From an uncultured Polaribacter sp. (GTDB lineage: Bacteria > Bacteroidota > Bacteroidia > Flavobacteriales > Flavobacteriaceae), in NCBI RefSeq assembly GCF_947503875.1, contig NZ_CANNFH010000001.1, forward strand, positions 62,001 to 126,000: a DNA stretch of 64,000 nt, given 5' to 3'. Within the stretch, counting starts at the first letter, position 1. Each line of letters starts with the position of its first letter. Positions 3,841-54,984 of the stretch are shown piece after piece. The notes beneath the pieces are model-generated. The model worked only from the letters and a program-made list of their open reading frames with translations. It did no database searches and was not told where the DNA came from. Position numbers and translations under genes: made by a program.

Positions 3841-3914
3841 GGTCTGGTAGTTCAGCTGGTTAGAATACCTGCCTGTCACGCAGGGGGTCGCGGGTTCGAG
3901 TCCCGTCCAGACCG
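3841..3914 (+). tRNA. tRNA-Asp (anticodon GTC)
   Basis: Acceptor ggtctgg/ccagacc, anticodon loop ctgtcac, T-arm gggttcgagtccc, discriminator G. Confidence 0.95.
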
Positions 3915-3918
3915 CAGA

Positions 3919-4961: not shown

Positions 4962-5861
4962 TCAACCAAAAATATTTCTGTAAAATAAGGTATTGTCGTC
5001 TTTAATTTTTTCAATTTCTGTTAAGCATCTATCATAATATGCTATTAGTTCAGGTGGTTCTATTATTCTAACATTGTACATCCACAAAAATATCCACCCT
5101 ACTAATTCTCTATTTATCCCACATTTAAATGTTATTGTAGTGGTATTATCTTCATTTACAACTTTCTGTGAATGGTGCCAAATAAACTTTTTTACATAAG
5201 CTCCGGTTATTGAAGAGAATTCTAATTTTATATTATAAATATTGTCGTCAACGTTTTTAGTAACGCCAAAGAGTCCCTTTTCAAAAGTTAGGTACCCTTC
5301 TTGTAAAACCTTATAATTATACTTTTTTTTACTGCGTAAGATTCTAGCTCCAATGAGTTGGCTAATGTCGAAAATAGCATAATCATTAGTTTTGGTTATA
5401 TAGCATCCTAAATAAAAATCTAATCTATGTTGAATTATTTTAAACGGTAATAGCGTAAGAGGAGTATCTTTAAATTCTGAATTAAATGATGTTACATCAT
5501 TTATTACGCTACTTACTCTTAGAGGTGCTTTTTTTACAATAGCATTAGAAAATAAAGATATTTGTGCCTTTATGTGGTCATCATTGGTAGGGATTTTAAA
5601 AACAGAATCTACTATTTGCGAAAAATCATTAGTTTTTTTCTTGTTGGTTATTTGCAGCTCTAAAACATTATTTATACCTCTACTTTTTACCAACTCCTCG
5701 TTTTTGTTAAGAAACTGTTTTAACTCATTAATATCTCTTTGTAATTGTCTTAAGCCAAGGATAGTTTTCTTTTTTTTAAACGCACTTAGTAAAGTGTTGT
5801 AGGTTTGTTTTGTTTCTTTTAAAAGATTGTAAATAAATTTAATGCGCTGAGTTTGTTTCAT
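4962..5861 (-). CDS. WYL-domain transcriptional regulator
   Basis: N-terminal HTH-like region; C-terminal LPFKIIQHRLDFYLGCY...GWIFLWMYNVRIIEPPELI resembles WYL plus WCX domains. Confidence 0.7.
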   Translation of the reverse strand: MKQTQRIKFIYNLLKETKQTYNTLLSAFKKKKTILGLRQLQRDINELKQFLNKNEELVKSRGINNVLELQITNKKKTNDFSQIVDSVFKIPTNDDHIKAQISLFSNAIVKKAPLRVSSVINDVTSFNSEFKDTPLTLLPFKIIQHRLDFYLGCYITKTNDYAIFDISQLIGARILRSKKKYNYKVLQEGYLTFEKGLFGVTKNVDDNIYNIKLEFSSITGAYVKKFIWHHSQKVVNEDNTTTITFKCGINRELVGWIFLWMYNVRIIEPPELIAYYDRCLTEIEKIKDDNTLFYRNIFG

Positions 5862-5999: not shown

Positions 6000-6668
6000 T
6001 TGATAAATAATTTTATAGTTGCCTGTGAAAAATTAGGTTACAAAGATGTAATAAACAATCCTGTTAAAGAGAGTGTAACCTATAAAGCAATTGGTAAAGG
6101 TTTACAATGGGGAACAAATGCTGTTATTTTAGTTGAATTTAAAGAGAAAGAAGGTTACACTAATGCATCGTTTGAGATTATAAAACAAATCAGATTTCCA
6201 AAATTTGGAAAACAAAAACTAGCTGAAAAATTTTACAAAGAAATAATTGGCTTGGTAGAGCTGTTAAACGAAACTACGATAAAAGATAATCAACCATTTA
6301 ATGATACTGAAAATGAAACTAATAGTGAATCAATTGAAAATGAAAGAAAAGTTGCTGAAAATAAAAGAGCTAACACCTTAAACAATAGAAACGATTCAGA
6401 AAATGTTAACACATATTTAGATAAAAACAACAAAAAGAAAAAAAATAAATTACTAATTTTTGGAGGTATACTAATTTTATTTTTAATGATAACTCAATTA
6501 TCAAAATCATCATCTTCTCCATCATCATCAATTAATGCCTGTGAATGTTCAGAAAGGTGGTTGGCTACACCTAAAAGTATGATGAAAAGTACTGATAAAT
6601 GGAAGTATGATGAATGCGTAAGAAAATATGGTGGATTCGCTGGTGCTCACGCGAAATGTAATGAATAA
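6000..6668 (+). CDS. Hypothetical single-pass membrane protein with Cys-rich C-terminal tail
   Basis: Intact ORF (TTG start), TM segment KLLIFGGILILFLMITQL, tail with CECSERW...DECVRKYGGFAGAHAKC. Confidence 0.6.
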   Translation: MINNFIVACEKLGYKDVINNPVKESVTYKAIGKGLQWGTNAVILVEFKEKEGYTNASFEIIKQIRFPKFGKQKLAEKFYKEIIGLVELLNETTIKDNQPFNDTENETNSESIENERKVAENKRANTLNNRNDSENVNTYLDKNNKKKKNKLLIFGGILILFLMITQLSKSSSSPSSSINACECSERWLATPKSMMKSTDKWKYDECVRKYGGFAGAHAKCNE

Positions 6669-6677
6669 TAAAAACTT

Positions 6678-7334
6678 ATGAAAGAACAAAATCTATTAAA
6701 AAGTAATATTTTAAAATTAAACACATTTGTATTATTAATACTAATGCTTACAGGAGTTAGCTGTAAAAAAGAGATAGACTATGAAACCGAGCAAGACTAT
6801 TTTGAAATAAGAAAAAACATTACTTATTATAAAGGAAAACCTTTTAATGGTATTCTAGTTAAAACCTACAAATCTAATTATGATTGGAGTGAAGAAGCTG
6901 AGGATGTAAATGAAGAAGCGTATATAGAACCTAATATTGTATTAGAAACTTTTATTGAAAGGACACCATACACAGAAGGAAAAATTAATGGAAAACAGAA
7001 AACGATAATAAAAAAATCTAAACAGTTAGAGATACTCTTTTCAGAGATGGATTATGTTTTAGGTTATTGGAAAAGTTTTAAACGCTATTACTCTAATGGT
7101 AACATCCTTCATATTATTACTTATAAATCAAATAAAAATGAATGGGAAAAACAACAGACGTATTATAAGAACGGTGTTGTAAAAGAGGAAAAACAATACA
7201 ATTATAAGAATGAAGTTAAAGTGAACCGTTATTATAAAACTGGGGTGATAAAAGAAGAGTTAATTGAACAAGGTAATGGTTTCTATACAATTATAAATAA
7301 ATTTAATGAAGATGGCAGCCCAATTAGAAAGTAA
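6678..7334 (+). CDS. YwqK/MORN-variant repeat lipoprotein
   Basis: Lipobox TGVSC; repeats of the type YYKNGVVKEEKQYNYKNE and YYKTGVIKEE. Confidence 0.65.
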   Translation: MKEQNLLKSNILKLNTFVLLILMLTGVSCKKEIDYETEQDYFEIRKNITYYKGKPFNGILVKTYKSNYDWSEEAEDVNEEAYIEPNIVLETFIERTPYTEGKINGKQKTIIKKSKQLEILFSEMDYVLGYWKSFKRYYSNGNILHIITYKSNKNEWEKQQTYYKNGVVKEEKQYNYKNEVKVNRYYKTGVIKEELIEQGNGFYTIINKFNEDGSPIRK

Positions 7335-7500
7335 TATATTTATTTTTTACTAAAATAAATGGTTTAATGTTACCTATAAATACAGTTATACTGATAAAGA
7401 AAACCAGACTTTCTAGAATCATTTAACAGAAAGACTAATGGGAAAGTTATTGTACTTATTAGCATGATCACAATAGTCTTTTTTTTTAAATAACATATTA

Positions 7501-8613
7501 ATGTTTCTAATATTAATGCTGGCAGTAGCTAGCTGCAAAAAAGAGGTAAACTATGAAACCGAGCAAGACTATTTTGAAATAAGAGAGAACGGAAAAAATA
7601 AAATATTCTATGGTTTTCCTAAACCTGAAGGAAGTAGTATTCTATATTACAAAGGAACTCCTTTTAATGGTAATTTGATTGGTAAAAGTCGTAATGATAT
7701 TTATATTCATAATGTACAATTTAAAGAGGGTAGATTAGATGGAATTTATGAAAGATATTACGAAAATGGACAACTGGAAAGAAAAACAAATTATAAAGGA
7801 GGGAAAAGGAACGGATTATTTGAAGAATATTACGAAAATGGACAATTAAAAATAACAACCACACTTAATGGTGATAGGTTTACTGGTTTAACGGAAGAAT
7901 ATTTTGAAAATGGTCAATTATTAGGGAAATCAAACTTTAACAAGGATAATCTTAGAGTAGGAACAGTAGTGGAATATTATGTAAACGGACAATTAAAATT
8001 AAAAATAAATTATAAAGGAGGAAAAAAGAACGGATTATTTGAAGAATATTATGAAAATGGACAACTAAAATCAAAAATAAATTATAAAGGAGGAAAAAAG
8101 AACGGATTATTTGAAGAATATTACGAAAATGGACAACTAGAAAGTAAGGGTTCTTATTGGTTTGATAATGATGATGGAATTTTGGAGCAGTATTACGATA
8201 ATGGAACACTATTGTGCAAAAGTAGTTGGATAAAAGGAAAGGCTGCAGATGGAATTATAAGGATTTTTTATGAAAATGGGAGATTAAAGAGCATGAAACA
8301 GGTTATAGATAATCAAGATAGATTTATTGTGAATTATGAATATAATGGTGATATAATATGGCCATATAAAGAATATTATGGTAATGGAAAAATTAAATTA
8401 GAAGTTGATTTCGAATATGGACATGATTTCAATGGATTTGAAACGTCTTGGCATGAATGGGGTTCTTACAAGGGTTCGAAAAAAATAAATTACCAAGATT
8501 TTACTAATAACTCCAATTACAAAATTTTTGCCATTGATTCTCATATATTGAACAATAAAAAAGTAGAAAAAATTAAAATTGTAGATACCATAAAACAAAA
8601 AAAAATCAAATAA
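7501..8613 (+). CDS. YwqK/MORN-variant repeat lipoprotein
   Basis: Lipobox AVASC; many (G)xYEEYYENGQLKxKxNYKGGKxNG repeats; N-terminal region near-identical to 6678..7334. Confidence 0.75.
   Translation: MFLILMLAVASCKKEVNYETEQDYFEIRENGKNKIFYGFPKPEGSSILYYKGTPFNGNLIGKSRNDIYIHNVQFKEGRLDGIYERYYENGQLERKTNYKGGKRNGLFEEYYENGQLKITTTLNGDRFTGLTEEYFENGQLLGKSNFNKDNLRVGTVVEYYVNGQLKLKINYKGGKKNGLFEEYYENGQLKSKINYKGGKKNGLFEEYYENGQLESKGSYWFDNDDGILEQYYDNGTLLCKSSWIKGKAADGIIRIFYENGRLKSMKQVIDNQDRFIVNYEYNGDIIWPYKEYYGNGKIKLEVDFEYGHDFNGFETSWHEWGSYKGSKKINYQDFTNNSNYKIFAIDSHILNNKKVEKIKIVDTIKQKKIK
8001..8144 (+). repeat. Near-identical 72-bp tandem repeat inside the YwqK gene
   Basis: aataaattataaaggaggaaaaaagaacggattatttgaagaatatta(t/c)gaaaatggacaact... 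occurs at 8004 and 8076 (24-aa unit); a diverged copy lies near 7789. Confidence 0.85.
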
Positions 8614-9101
8614 AACAATCAATTGAAATTAACCAATTTGTAGGGAGATGGTATGATGGTGATAATTGTTGGCTTAATATAGAAGAATCTAACGAAAATC
8701 TAAATATCTATTACCATGCAGGTCCATGCCAAGGTACTATCTTTGGTAGATTCATAAAAAATAAACACACATTAATTCATGTAAGTTCAGAATGCAACTA
8801 TAGAGGGTTTAATAACGAGCATATCCTGGGTAAGAAAATTGGATATGCAAGAATAATAAACAGACAACTTGTATTAGATTTAGCTATTGGTGATGATCTA
8901 TTAAAAAAAGGAGGACAGGTCTTTAACCGTGAAGAGTAATGAATTATACCAAGACTTATTTTTTAGTCAATTTTAATATGTGATCTAAAGCTTCTCGTAA
9001 TGAGCATAAAAACACATCATGCAGATGTACTTTTGAAGAATGAATGGAACACTTAATAAGGGATATACGTAATTAAGGTAAATTGCTAATAAATGACTTT
9101 A

Positions 9102-9877
9102 GGTTCTGACGCATCTGTTAAAATTAAGCCTCAAGTTTTAAACTAATTTAATTTTTTAAGAAGCTAATAATATAAATGATTTGTATGTTGAACTTTCAGG
9201 GTTCACCAGTTGATTTTTATTTATCATTCTAACTACTTCTATTACTGTTATGGTTCTCTTTGCTGATTTAAATTCTTTAAAACCTAGACCTAGAATAATA
9301 CGCTACTTTATCATTCGATGGTCTTGTTCTACAATATTATTAAGGTATTTGCATTGCCTTATTTTTATGTTTGAATAGTTTCTTCGATTGTATAGTTTTA
9401 CCGCAGCTTTATTCGCCCCACTCTTATCGATGTTTATAAGTTCTGGATTAACATTATTCTCTATGGCTTTGATTAAAAATTTCTGTTCAGATATGCGTTG
9501 TCTTCTTTTAGTTAACAAAAAGTCTACAGTATTCCCTTCTTTATCAACTGCTCTGTATAAACATCTTCACTCACCCTTTACCTTAATATAGGTTTCATCT
9601 AGTCTCCACCTTTTCCCAACTAATTTTTTTCTCTTTCTGAATTGTTGTTCTAAAAGGGTTGTTAATTTGAATACCCAGTGTTGAATAGTAGCATGATTCA
9701 CTTTGACCCCTCTGATAGATAAAAGTTTTTCTACATCTCTATAAGCTTAGACTAAACCTTAATTTGAAGTAAACAGTTTGTAATATGATTTCTTTAGGAA
9801 AACAGTGACCTTTGAACATCTTTTTTGTTGTAAATATAAAAAAAATGATTATTTCTTAAATTAGATGCGACAGAACC
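9102..9877 (-). mobile_element. Decayed IS6-family insertion sequence
   Basis: Terminal inverted repeats ggttctg(a/t)cgcatc at 9102 and 9877; minus-strand remnants HWVFKLTTLLEQQFRKRKKLVGKRWRLDETYIKVKGE*RCLYRAVDKEGNTVDFLLTKRRQ...NIVEQDHRMIK*RI; about 776 bp; one frameshift and two Trp-to-stop changes. Confidence 0.85.
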
Positions 9878-13689: not shown

Positions 13690-13819
13690 TTTTATTATTG
13701 ATAATTTATCAACATAAAAATTATCATTTTAATAAAATTAAAAAGTAATTGATAGACAACCTTCAGATTTTAGGTGTCTATTAATTTCCGAGTATTAAGA
13801 ATAAAAAAAAAACAAAAAA

Positions 13820-15232
13820 ATGAAAGCAATCAAAAAAAAATTAATTTACATGTTCTATTTGTTAGTGATTATGATAAGTTGTAATGATGATACTGTAGAG
13901 GTTGATTCTACACCTGAGTTTAATTCCTTTGTAGAAAGTATATCTTCTCTACCTGGCGAGATTGTTACTTTTGAAGCAGTAATTTCTGATCCTGCAGGTG
14001 TTAAATCTGTTAATATAAAATATGATAATTGGTTTTTAGATAAGACAATATTTAAAGATTCGTTACCAGATGTCTATAAGATGTCTTATCGTTTTACAGT
14101 GCCAAATGATGAAGAAGAGTTTAGTGTTCATACGATCCCTGTAACAATAACTAATGCTGGTGATGTCTCCACTAAAAAAGAAGTTGTAATTACCTTAGAT
14201 AAAGATATTGACGCTCCTTTAATATCTATTAATAGTCCAGAAAATAATGCTACTGTTTTAGTTGGTGCAGGTGATGAAATAAATTTTAATATAGATTTAA
14301 CTGATAGAGAGTTGGCTGAGTTTAAGGTGGAAAGCGACATTCTTAATGAAATTATTCCTTTAAATGGGGTTTCAACCTATAATTATAGTAAATCACTAGA
14401 TGTGGCTAGTCCAGGTAGTTATACTTTTAATTTTACAGCTAAAGATATAACTGGTAACGAGTCTACTTCTTCTGTTACAGTTAGTGTTGTTACAGATTTA
14501 CAATTTACTGCAATGTACCTAACTGATGAAACAAATGATGCTGCTTTAAGTCAGGATATATTTGGTATACCTTTTAGTACAACAGCTAGTCAAGCATCAG
14601 GTGAGAATGGGTATGTTTTTACTGCTTTTTATTACTCTAAAAATGCAAATTCAGAGGTGAGATTTATTCCTCAACAAGGATCTTTTTCTCCGTTTGCTTT
14701 TGGTGCAAATACTAATAGTTCTAATAAATTGAATTTAGGAAGTGATGCTACTGTAAATCCAATAATAATTCCTGGTGTAGGTTATTATGAAATAACAATG
14801 GATGTTAGAGATTTATCTTATTCAGTTACACCATATACGCCAACAGATTCAGCCTTTGATCAGGTTTATGTTTTAGGGAGAGGGATATTCGTAGATGGAA
14901 CAACTTCTACATGTACAAAAAATTCAGATGGTGCTACGCAATGCTGGCATTTTAATTCAGGAAAACCACTTGTGCAAGATTCAAACAATCAGTTTTTATG
15001 GACCTTAGATGTTACTATCAAAGACCAACCAGATGATAATGGTGCAAATGGATTTATACTAAATGCAAATCCTACTGGATGGGCGCCTTTTTGGAGAACT
15101 AACACAGAGGATCGTTCTATAGCAGTTCCTGGAGGTGGAGGTAATTATGTGTTTGAAGATAGTGCTTTGGATAAGGATTATACTTTCATATTTGATACTC
15201 ATTTAAATAGAGTAATAATTAAAAATAGATAA
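13820..15232 (+). CDS. SusE/SusF-like outer-membrane lipoprotein
   Basis: Lipobox MISCNDD; position next to SusC/D; beta-rich repeats and C-terminal SusE/F-like segment. Confidence 0.65.
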   Translation: MKAIKKKLIYMFYLLVIMISCNDDTVEVDSTPEFNSFVESISSLPGEIVTFEAVISDPAGVKSVNIKYDNWFLDKTIFKDSLPDVYKMSYRFTVPNDEEEFSVHTIPVTITNAGDVSTKKEVVITLDKDIDAPLISINSPENNATVLVGAGDEINFNIDLTDRELAEFKVESDILNEIIPLNGVSTYNYSKSLDVASPGSYTFNFTAKDITGNESTSSVTVSVVTDLQFTAMYLTDETNDAALSQDIFGIPFSTTASQASGENGYVFTAFYYSKNANSEVRFIPQQGSFSPFAFGANTNSSNKLNLGSDATVNPIIIPGVGYYEITMDVRDLSYSVTPYTPTDSAFDQVYVLGRGIFVDGTTSTCTKNSDGATQCWHFNSGKPLVQDSNNQFLWTLDVTIKDQPDDNGANGFILNANPTGWAPFWRTNTEDRSIAVPGGGGNYVFEDSALDKDYTFIFDTHLNRVIIKNR

Positions 15233-54114: not shown

Positions 54115-54984
54115 TTATTTAATTTTTACATTCCAAGTTACAGCATAAGATGTTTGGGGTTCTAATTCTTGAAGCCCAGTTTTATTATTAAAGCTATTAG
54201 AAATACCTGTCATTGGCTCTATAGCAATAACTGGTAAGCCTTTAGGTGTATATAATTGTAAATAGTTTTCTACTTGGTTTGTAGAAATTTCTATTTGATA
54301 ATTTGGAGTTGAAAAGGCAACTACATCAGAATTTAAAATAAAAGAATCATCTAATTGTATGCCTTTTTAAGTGAATTTGTCATCAGCTTTATAATCAGTT
54401 ATTTTTTTTGTGATTAAATTTTCATCAAATTCAATTTTCTTATCGCTTTTAAAATTTAAAGAACTATTTTCTAAATCTTCACTAAAAAAATAAGGGTGCC
54501 ATCCTAAAGTAAAAGGAAAAGGTTTGGTATCTGTATTTTCTATTTTTACGGATACACTAATTTCATCTTTATAAAGCGTGTAGATTAATTCAACTTTATA
54601 AGTAAAAGGAAACCCTAAACTTTCTTCTTTTTCTTGATAAATAAGAGTTACAGCAGCATAATTTAGAGATTCAATTTTTTTTTCGACTGTAAAAGGTTTG
54701 TTATAAACTAAACCATGCAAAGCATTTTTACCATCATTACATTCAAATTCATATTCGTTTTCTTTAAATGTATATTTTCCATTTTCTATTCTATTTGCAA
54801 AAGGAAATAATATAGAAGAAGCATAAGAGTTTTCATAAGAAAAACCAGTAATTTCTTTGATTAATAGTTGATTATTCAGCTGTAGTTCTTGTAATCTTTC
54901 ACCTTCATTTAAAGAAATTATTGCTTTACTATTTGTGCTTTTTAGTTCTAAAAAGTTGACATTTTCATCTTTTATTGTAAACAT
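54115..54984 (-). pseudogene. galM: Aldose 1-epimerase (galM-like) interrupted by an in-frame TAA
   Basis: 54367..54984 encodes an aldose-epimerase N-terminus (LHGLVYNKPF, FTLGWHPYFF); the same frame resumes after the TAA at 54367-54369 with KGIQLDDSFILNS...GLPVIAIEPMTGISNSFNNKTGLQELEPQTSYAVTWNVKIK* to 54115. Confidence 0.85.

Follow-up and report, generated by a model that had tools for sequence, protein, structure and literature searches.

The lipoprotein gene at 7501-8613 was most likely broken recently. We judge it about evenly balanced that it is a broken but leaky gene, thrown out of frame at a run of nine A's (A9), and not an evolved switch. The run lies in a linker, two reading frames meet at it, a tail with no start codon follows it, and the genome avoids such runs inside its genes; all of this can be read directly from the DNA. 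The window, as we call the whole stretch analysed, spans 64,000 nucleotides (62001-126000 of contig C1, itself 589,863 bases long), and the genome comprises 3.09 Mb in 10 contigs and is 99.98% complete. The features concerned are:

3841..3915, plus strand: tRNA-Asp(gtc), island boundary opposite the IS6 remnant
4962-5861, minus strand: WYL/WCX-type regulator
6000..6668, plus strand: protein with a hydrophobic segment, function not assigned
6678..7334, plus strand: upstream paralogue, also a lipoprotein, with a Lys in its signal peptide and weak similarity to MORN_2
7464..7493, plus strand: mini-ORF from an alternative start in another frame, translated as MITIVFFFK-stop
7479..7487, plus strand: T9 tract, read from the sequence
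7501..8613, plus strand: 370-codon ORF with a short signal peptide, lipobox Cys and MORN_2 repeats (YwqK-type lipoprotein)
7715..8215, plus strand: array of MORN_2 units with a 72-75-nt period (repeats D1-D3), from a repeat search
8597..8605, plus strand: A9 tract, in register A AAA AAA, read from the sequence
8607..8939, plus strand: start-less C-terminal tail, 110 codons and a stop (8937-8939), shifted by -1 from the frame of the 7501 ORF
9303..9746, minus strand: IS6-family transposase remnant (NF033587, PF13610), in two pieces because of an in-frame stop, its C-terminus lost

A start-less frame behind the A run

The two tracts described in the earlier note, T9 at 7479-7487 and A9 at 8597-8605, are both present. 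Around A9 the zero frame reads CAA AAA AAA ATC AAA TAA, with the heptamer A AAA AAA in register. The open frame reported behind the run is there too, and does open at A9; its extent, first given as about 108 codons, is corrected to 110 past the tract, or 107 past the stop at 8613. This frame holds no ATG, GTG or TTG, which rules out a separate gene and leaves the tail reachable by a frame change only.

Is such a frame coding? Stop-free stretches of at least 110 codons are rare by chance (2 of the 33,022 wrong-frame runs in the genome), and codon usage in the tail scores +0.13 bits per codon where the 7501 ORF reaches 0.34, all five other frames of the tail falling below zero (-0.10 to -0.52 bits per codon). 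Among real coding chunks the tail's score stands at the 4th percentile, and it is exceeded by 3.7% of wrong-frame chunks; as this is low for a gene, coding status is likely, short of proven. The earlier view that A9 separates the 7501 gene from a start-less, coding-like tail is borne out, and both the rarity of the frame and the fact that its codon score alone is positive argue for a broken gene. So does the position of the run, which is a natural one, in the Lys/Gln-rich linker through which the joined frame passes into NQFVGRWYDGDNCWLN..., possibly a compact domain. The tail translation includes FVGRWYDGDNCWLNIEESNENLNIYYHAGPCQGTIFGR.

Searches of the tail against Pfam, NCBIfam, PADLOC and PDB sequences gave nothing useful and no family. 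No homologue was found in 59 relatives, in 400 genomes of the family (at least 237 genera), 168 of the genus (168 species) and 395 of the class, or in GTDB contigs, viral contigs and plasmids; three matches from the family search (E 0.002-0.009) were discarded, the surrounding frames encoding unrelated proteins. No second genome among those searched carries the tail or the tracts. An AlphaFold model of the tail is all-beta, with six strands, at a pLDDT of 46, a low confidence at which it carries no weight, and a Foldseek search with this model, which returned nothing below E = 1, was disregarded.

The body of the 7501 ORF matches Pfam PF07661 (MORN_2) at E 7e-35 (115 bits against a gathering cut-off of 29.6), and a query with its N-terminal 126 residues found 44% identity to a genus-mate. 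Like the YwqK-type / MORN_2 (PF07661) lipoproteins of the Bacteroidota, it combines a lipobox Cys with arrays of EYYENGQL units; it differs from them in its abnormal signal peptide, and in a C-terminal tail present in no relative examined. The Bacillus gene ywqK appears in PMC8321402 as partner to a putative toxin, ywqJ. A YwqJ-YwqK toxin-antitoxin pair was considered here and is not borne out: around the gene lie a WYL/WCX-type regulator, the protein that the related genome G005 also has, the paralogue and the IS6 remnant, and since no toxin gene adjoins the 7501 ORF, an antitoxin role is unsupported.

How unusual, then, is a run of nine inside a gene? Our controls for tracts and headless frames covered 1.82 Mb (59% of the genome), with genes called mechanically as the longest ORFs and expected counts within them drawn from synonymous shuffles. 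A9 was observed 39 times in genes against 155 expected, and A10 or longer 4 times against 98; the corresponding figures are 15 against 60 for T9, and 2 against 38 for T10 or longer. The ratio of observed to expected is hence 0.25 for both A9 and T9 and only 4-5% for A/T runs of at least ten, the reduction being milder for A8 (0.81) and T8 (0.60), and tracts of at least nine are 11 times denser between genes than inside them. Baranov and colleagues read a nine-nucleotide threshold as slippage avoidance, adding that such counts cannot separate replication from transcription slippage (PMC1088944). By this criterion, nine marks the slippage-prone length of A/T runs in our organism, and because purging becomes strong at that length, slippage or an indel at A9, as the earlier note proposed, is a sound idea. 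The combination of a 9A or 9T run, a long extension in a shifted frame and a run-avoiding genome (of the PMC1088944 type) is found at A9, with its 107 codons beyond the stop.

Within the last 60 nt of a gene, runs of at least nine A/T occur in 2 of 1,294 genes, one being the 7501 gene. A 3' tract case at C1:415042, in a MurQ-like gene, was rejected, an overlapping gene with its own ATG coming next. Start-less coding stretches in a shifted frame beside an upstream gene number two in 1.82 Mb, namely the A9 tail and a case on contig C3; the latter, beside an A6, was set aside, since its downstream ORF, with about 220 codons still to run after its first start, has the look of an ordinary gene. Of headless frames linked to a homopolymer, the A9 tail is the sole convincing one in the 1.82 Mb scanned. 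Elsewhere in the window, three A runs (A10, A7, A9) cluster at 13803-13840, at the start of the gene at 13820-15232.

The 5' end of the gene

The ORF at 7501-8613 and the 11 residues ahead of its Cys (MFLILMLAVAS-C, with neither Lys nor Arg) are as first described, and the signal peptide is abnormal, as had been argued: both the homologue in G005, which begins MKLNNTLLILILVFSVISC, and the upstream paralogue at 6678, which begins MKEQNLLKSNILKLNTFVLLILMLTGVSC, have longer ones. When lipoprotein-like ORFs were filtered from 790 kb with a regular expression, 53 of the 54 carried a Lys or Arg and at least 13 residues before the Cys, and the 7501 gene was the exception. Of the three marks of a Bacteroidota lipoprotein (a basic n-region, a hydrophobic core and a lipobox Cys), the lipobox is present but the basic n-region is missing.

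As the assembled start is abnormal, looking upstream was right. The ATG at 7464 does open a short frame, its peptide being MITIVFFFK-stop (7464-7493) and not the MITIVFF first given, and loss of one T does join it to the 7501 ORF. The expectation that this would yield a normal signal peptide fails, however: the joined T8 form (MITIVFFLNNILMFLILMLAVAS; MITIVFFLNNILMFLILMLAVASC) is likewise free of Lys and Arg, and would itself be the only such case in the lipoprotein sample. Another ATG, at 7438 and in frame with the 7501 ORF (MGKLLYLLA), is interrupted by a TGA and a TAG ahead of the tract. The start codon of the G005 gene (MKLNN...) falls opposite the centre of the T run, and homology with that gene (LNN) extends up to the end of T9.

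Taken alone, the 5' tract is not unusual, with a run of at least nine A/T lying no more than 40 nt from the start in 27 of 1,294 genes; in about 30 genes in a 790-kb sample, a start in another frame could be joined through a tract of at least seven. Runs at both ends are found in the 7501 gene only, out of 1,294, where 0.04 genes would be expected were the two independent; this pairing was seen first and counted later, and so serves as a hint only. The evidence at the 5' tract is weaker than that at the 3' tract. As assembled, the 5' end looks more like a damaged one than a poised one, and, being abnormal as the 3' end is, it makes for two defects in one gene.

A probably decaying island and other disrupted genes

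The region from tRNA-Asp to the IS6 remnant looks like a rare, mobile island. Its protein at 6000-6668 is 73% identical to a G005 gene (L096:16259-16975), has no homologue in the other 166 of the 168 genus genomes and found no match among GTDB contigs. The G005 contig L096 carries the related lipoprotein and the 6000-6668 homologue together with brxA, brxB, brxC and a WYL regulator, a BREX-like defence cluster. The paralogue at 6678..7334 is 84% identical at the DNA level across 99 nt surrounding the lipobox (repeat D4), and its MORN_2 Pfam match (8e-5) lies under the gathering score. The two pieces of the IS6 remnant match NF033587 at E 7e-18 and 1e-21. That the island is decaying is the best reading, and this flank, with its in-frame stop and lost C-terminus, also argues for a broken gene.

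Disruption is seen beyond the island as well. In the genus relative G019 (L101, about 1270, minus strand) the MORN_2 array is split by what appears to be a 1-nt frameshift of its own, at a short run of A's, which suggests that genes of the MORN_2 type do break. The 1.82-Mb scan also brought up two in-frame nonsense cases. An aldose 1-epimerase of the galactose gene cluster (54115-54984, minus strand) has an in-frame TAA (...DDKFT-stop-KGIQLDDSF...) that divides it into about 205 and 83 codons, and a secreted protein with a C-terminal sorting-like end (C2:81928-83970, L059) has an in-frame stop between two repeated domains; inactivating mutations thus occur in this strain. Together with the apparent frameshift in G019, these stops would be in keeping with a broken 7501 gene.

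The window also holds a polysaccharide utilisation locus at 13820-47568, with SusC/SusD, two GH30 and several GH2 enzymes and a sugar transporter; galT and galE lie close by, and the locus probably serves a galactose-containing glycan. T9SS genes are found within the window too, and together with SusC/SusD they suggest a flavobacterium.

Broken gene, slippage or miscount

We propose that the stretch from about 7464 to 8939 was once a single, longer lipoprotein gene, comprising a signal peptide, the MORN_2 array, a Lys-rich linker and a C-terminal domain of about 105 residues. A slip of one base by the replication machinery at the A run would have cost the tail its frame, and relaxed selection would now act on the gene, whose start is also damaged or atypical and which sits in an island with an IS6 remnant. 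A run of nine A's being prone to slippage, RNA polymerase would probably yield a minority of mRNAs with a frame-restoring number of A's, and some full-length protein may leak. Such a leak through RNA-polymerase slippage is a reasonable expectation, with a precedent in tssM1, in which an A11 before the stop gives about 20% frameshifted product (PMC4256274). In E. coli, RNA polymerase slippage comes more easily on T runs than on A runs; a minimum of seven T's is required, and a larger number of A's (PMC6260861), and so the leak at A9 may be small. Three observations speak against a broken gene: the 370-codon body is intact and its repeats well kept, which would make any decay recent or partial; the open frame and codon use have to carry the ancestral fusion by themselves, as no homologue of the tail was found; and the G005 gene, closest to the body among relatives, has no such tail at its end, so that the tail could be a late, unselected extension.

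Could both products instead be of use? In functional transcriptional slippage, RNA polymerase would stutter at A9, and perhaps at T9, giving mixed mRNA and two C-terminal forms, both used. The poly-A just ahead of the stop and the further domain in another frame recall the layout of tssM1 (PMC4256274), nine A/T is where strong purging begins in this genome, and no other convincing headless frame of the kind lies in 1.82 Mb. However, A9 is shorter than the A11 of tssM1, the E. coli polymerase wants long A runs and favours T (PMC6260861), and conservation of the run, a criterion in PMC1088944, has no homologues on which it could be judged; we consider this reading unlikely.

It is slightly less probable again that one or both tracts were miscounted in sequencing or assembly and the gene is intact. 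Both anomalies fall exactly on nine-base homopolymers, which are hard to count, yet the 59 other in-gene runs of at least nine produce no further convincing headless frame in 1.82 Mb, completeness is 99.98%, and a T count one higher or lower still gives no normal signal peptide. As the A9 tail is the sole such case, general miscalling of homopolymers is unlikely, and an assembly-wide error is unsupported, the rest of the assembly being clean. The caution about sequencing error in the earlier note is eased by this record, and stands as regards a single local error.

Reversible phase variation in the DNA, with replication slippage at T9 and A9 switching both signal peptide and C-terminal form, seems to us doubtful. 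Both tracts have a length at which runs may become hypermutable (changes in the inlA poly-A tract exceed the average point mutation about 1,000-fold in frequency; PMC2831843), and the 7501 gene is alone among 1,294 in having runs at both ends. Against this, the T8 form still lacks a signal peptide with Lys or Arg, chance alone often places such runs at the 5' end, and the tract lengths come from one assembly, in which no variation is seen. An adaptive, two-ended phase switch is possible but unsupported. We regard as very improbable a scheme in which polymerase slippage at both nine-base runs would set export signal and C-terminal domain, for up to four forms and no regulator. A programmed -1 ribosomal frameshift of the dnaX kind at A AAA AAA is barely credible: the heptamer is in register (CAA AAA AAA ATC), but the downstream sequence folds no better than shuffles (z = 0.2 to 0.7), on which a stimulatory stem-loop was rejected, and inspection found no clear Shine-Dalgarno-like stimulator upstream.

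Should the broken gene prove leaky and full-length protein be made, it would be a Bacteroidota addition to the few demonstrated frames rescued by transcriptional slippage, and a warning that annotation cuts such genes short. Even if the gene is merely broken, the sharp purge of A/T runs from nine bases upwards in a flavobacterial genome offers a simple filter for slippage candidates. Among known systems, tssM1 of Citrobacter rodentium (PMC4256274) likewise has a poly-A shortly ahead of the stop of its shorter form, and a domain in another frame behind it; its run is A11 where ours is A9, and its tail is a known conserved domain. For tssM1, slippage, both products and the need for both have been demonstrated (PMC4256274); for the 7501 gene they are hypothetical. 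In inlA of Listeria monocytogenes (PMC2831843) the frequency of change has been measured, and the 7501 gene differs further in that its joined form keeps an atypical signal peptide; the two nevertheless share a homopolymer near the 5' end, and a very short product when out of frame.
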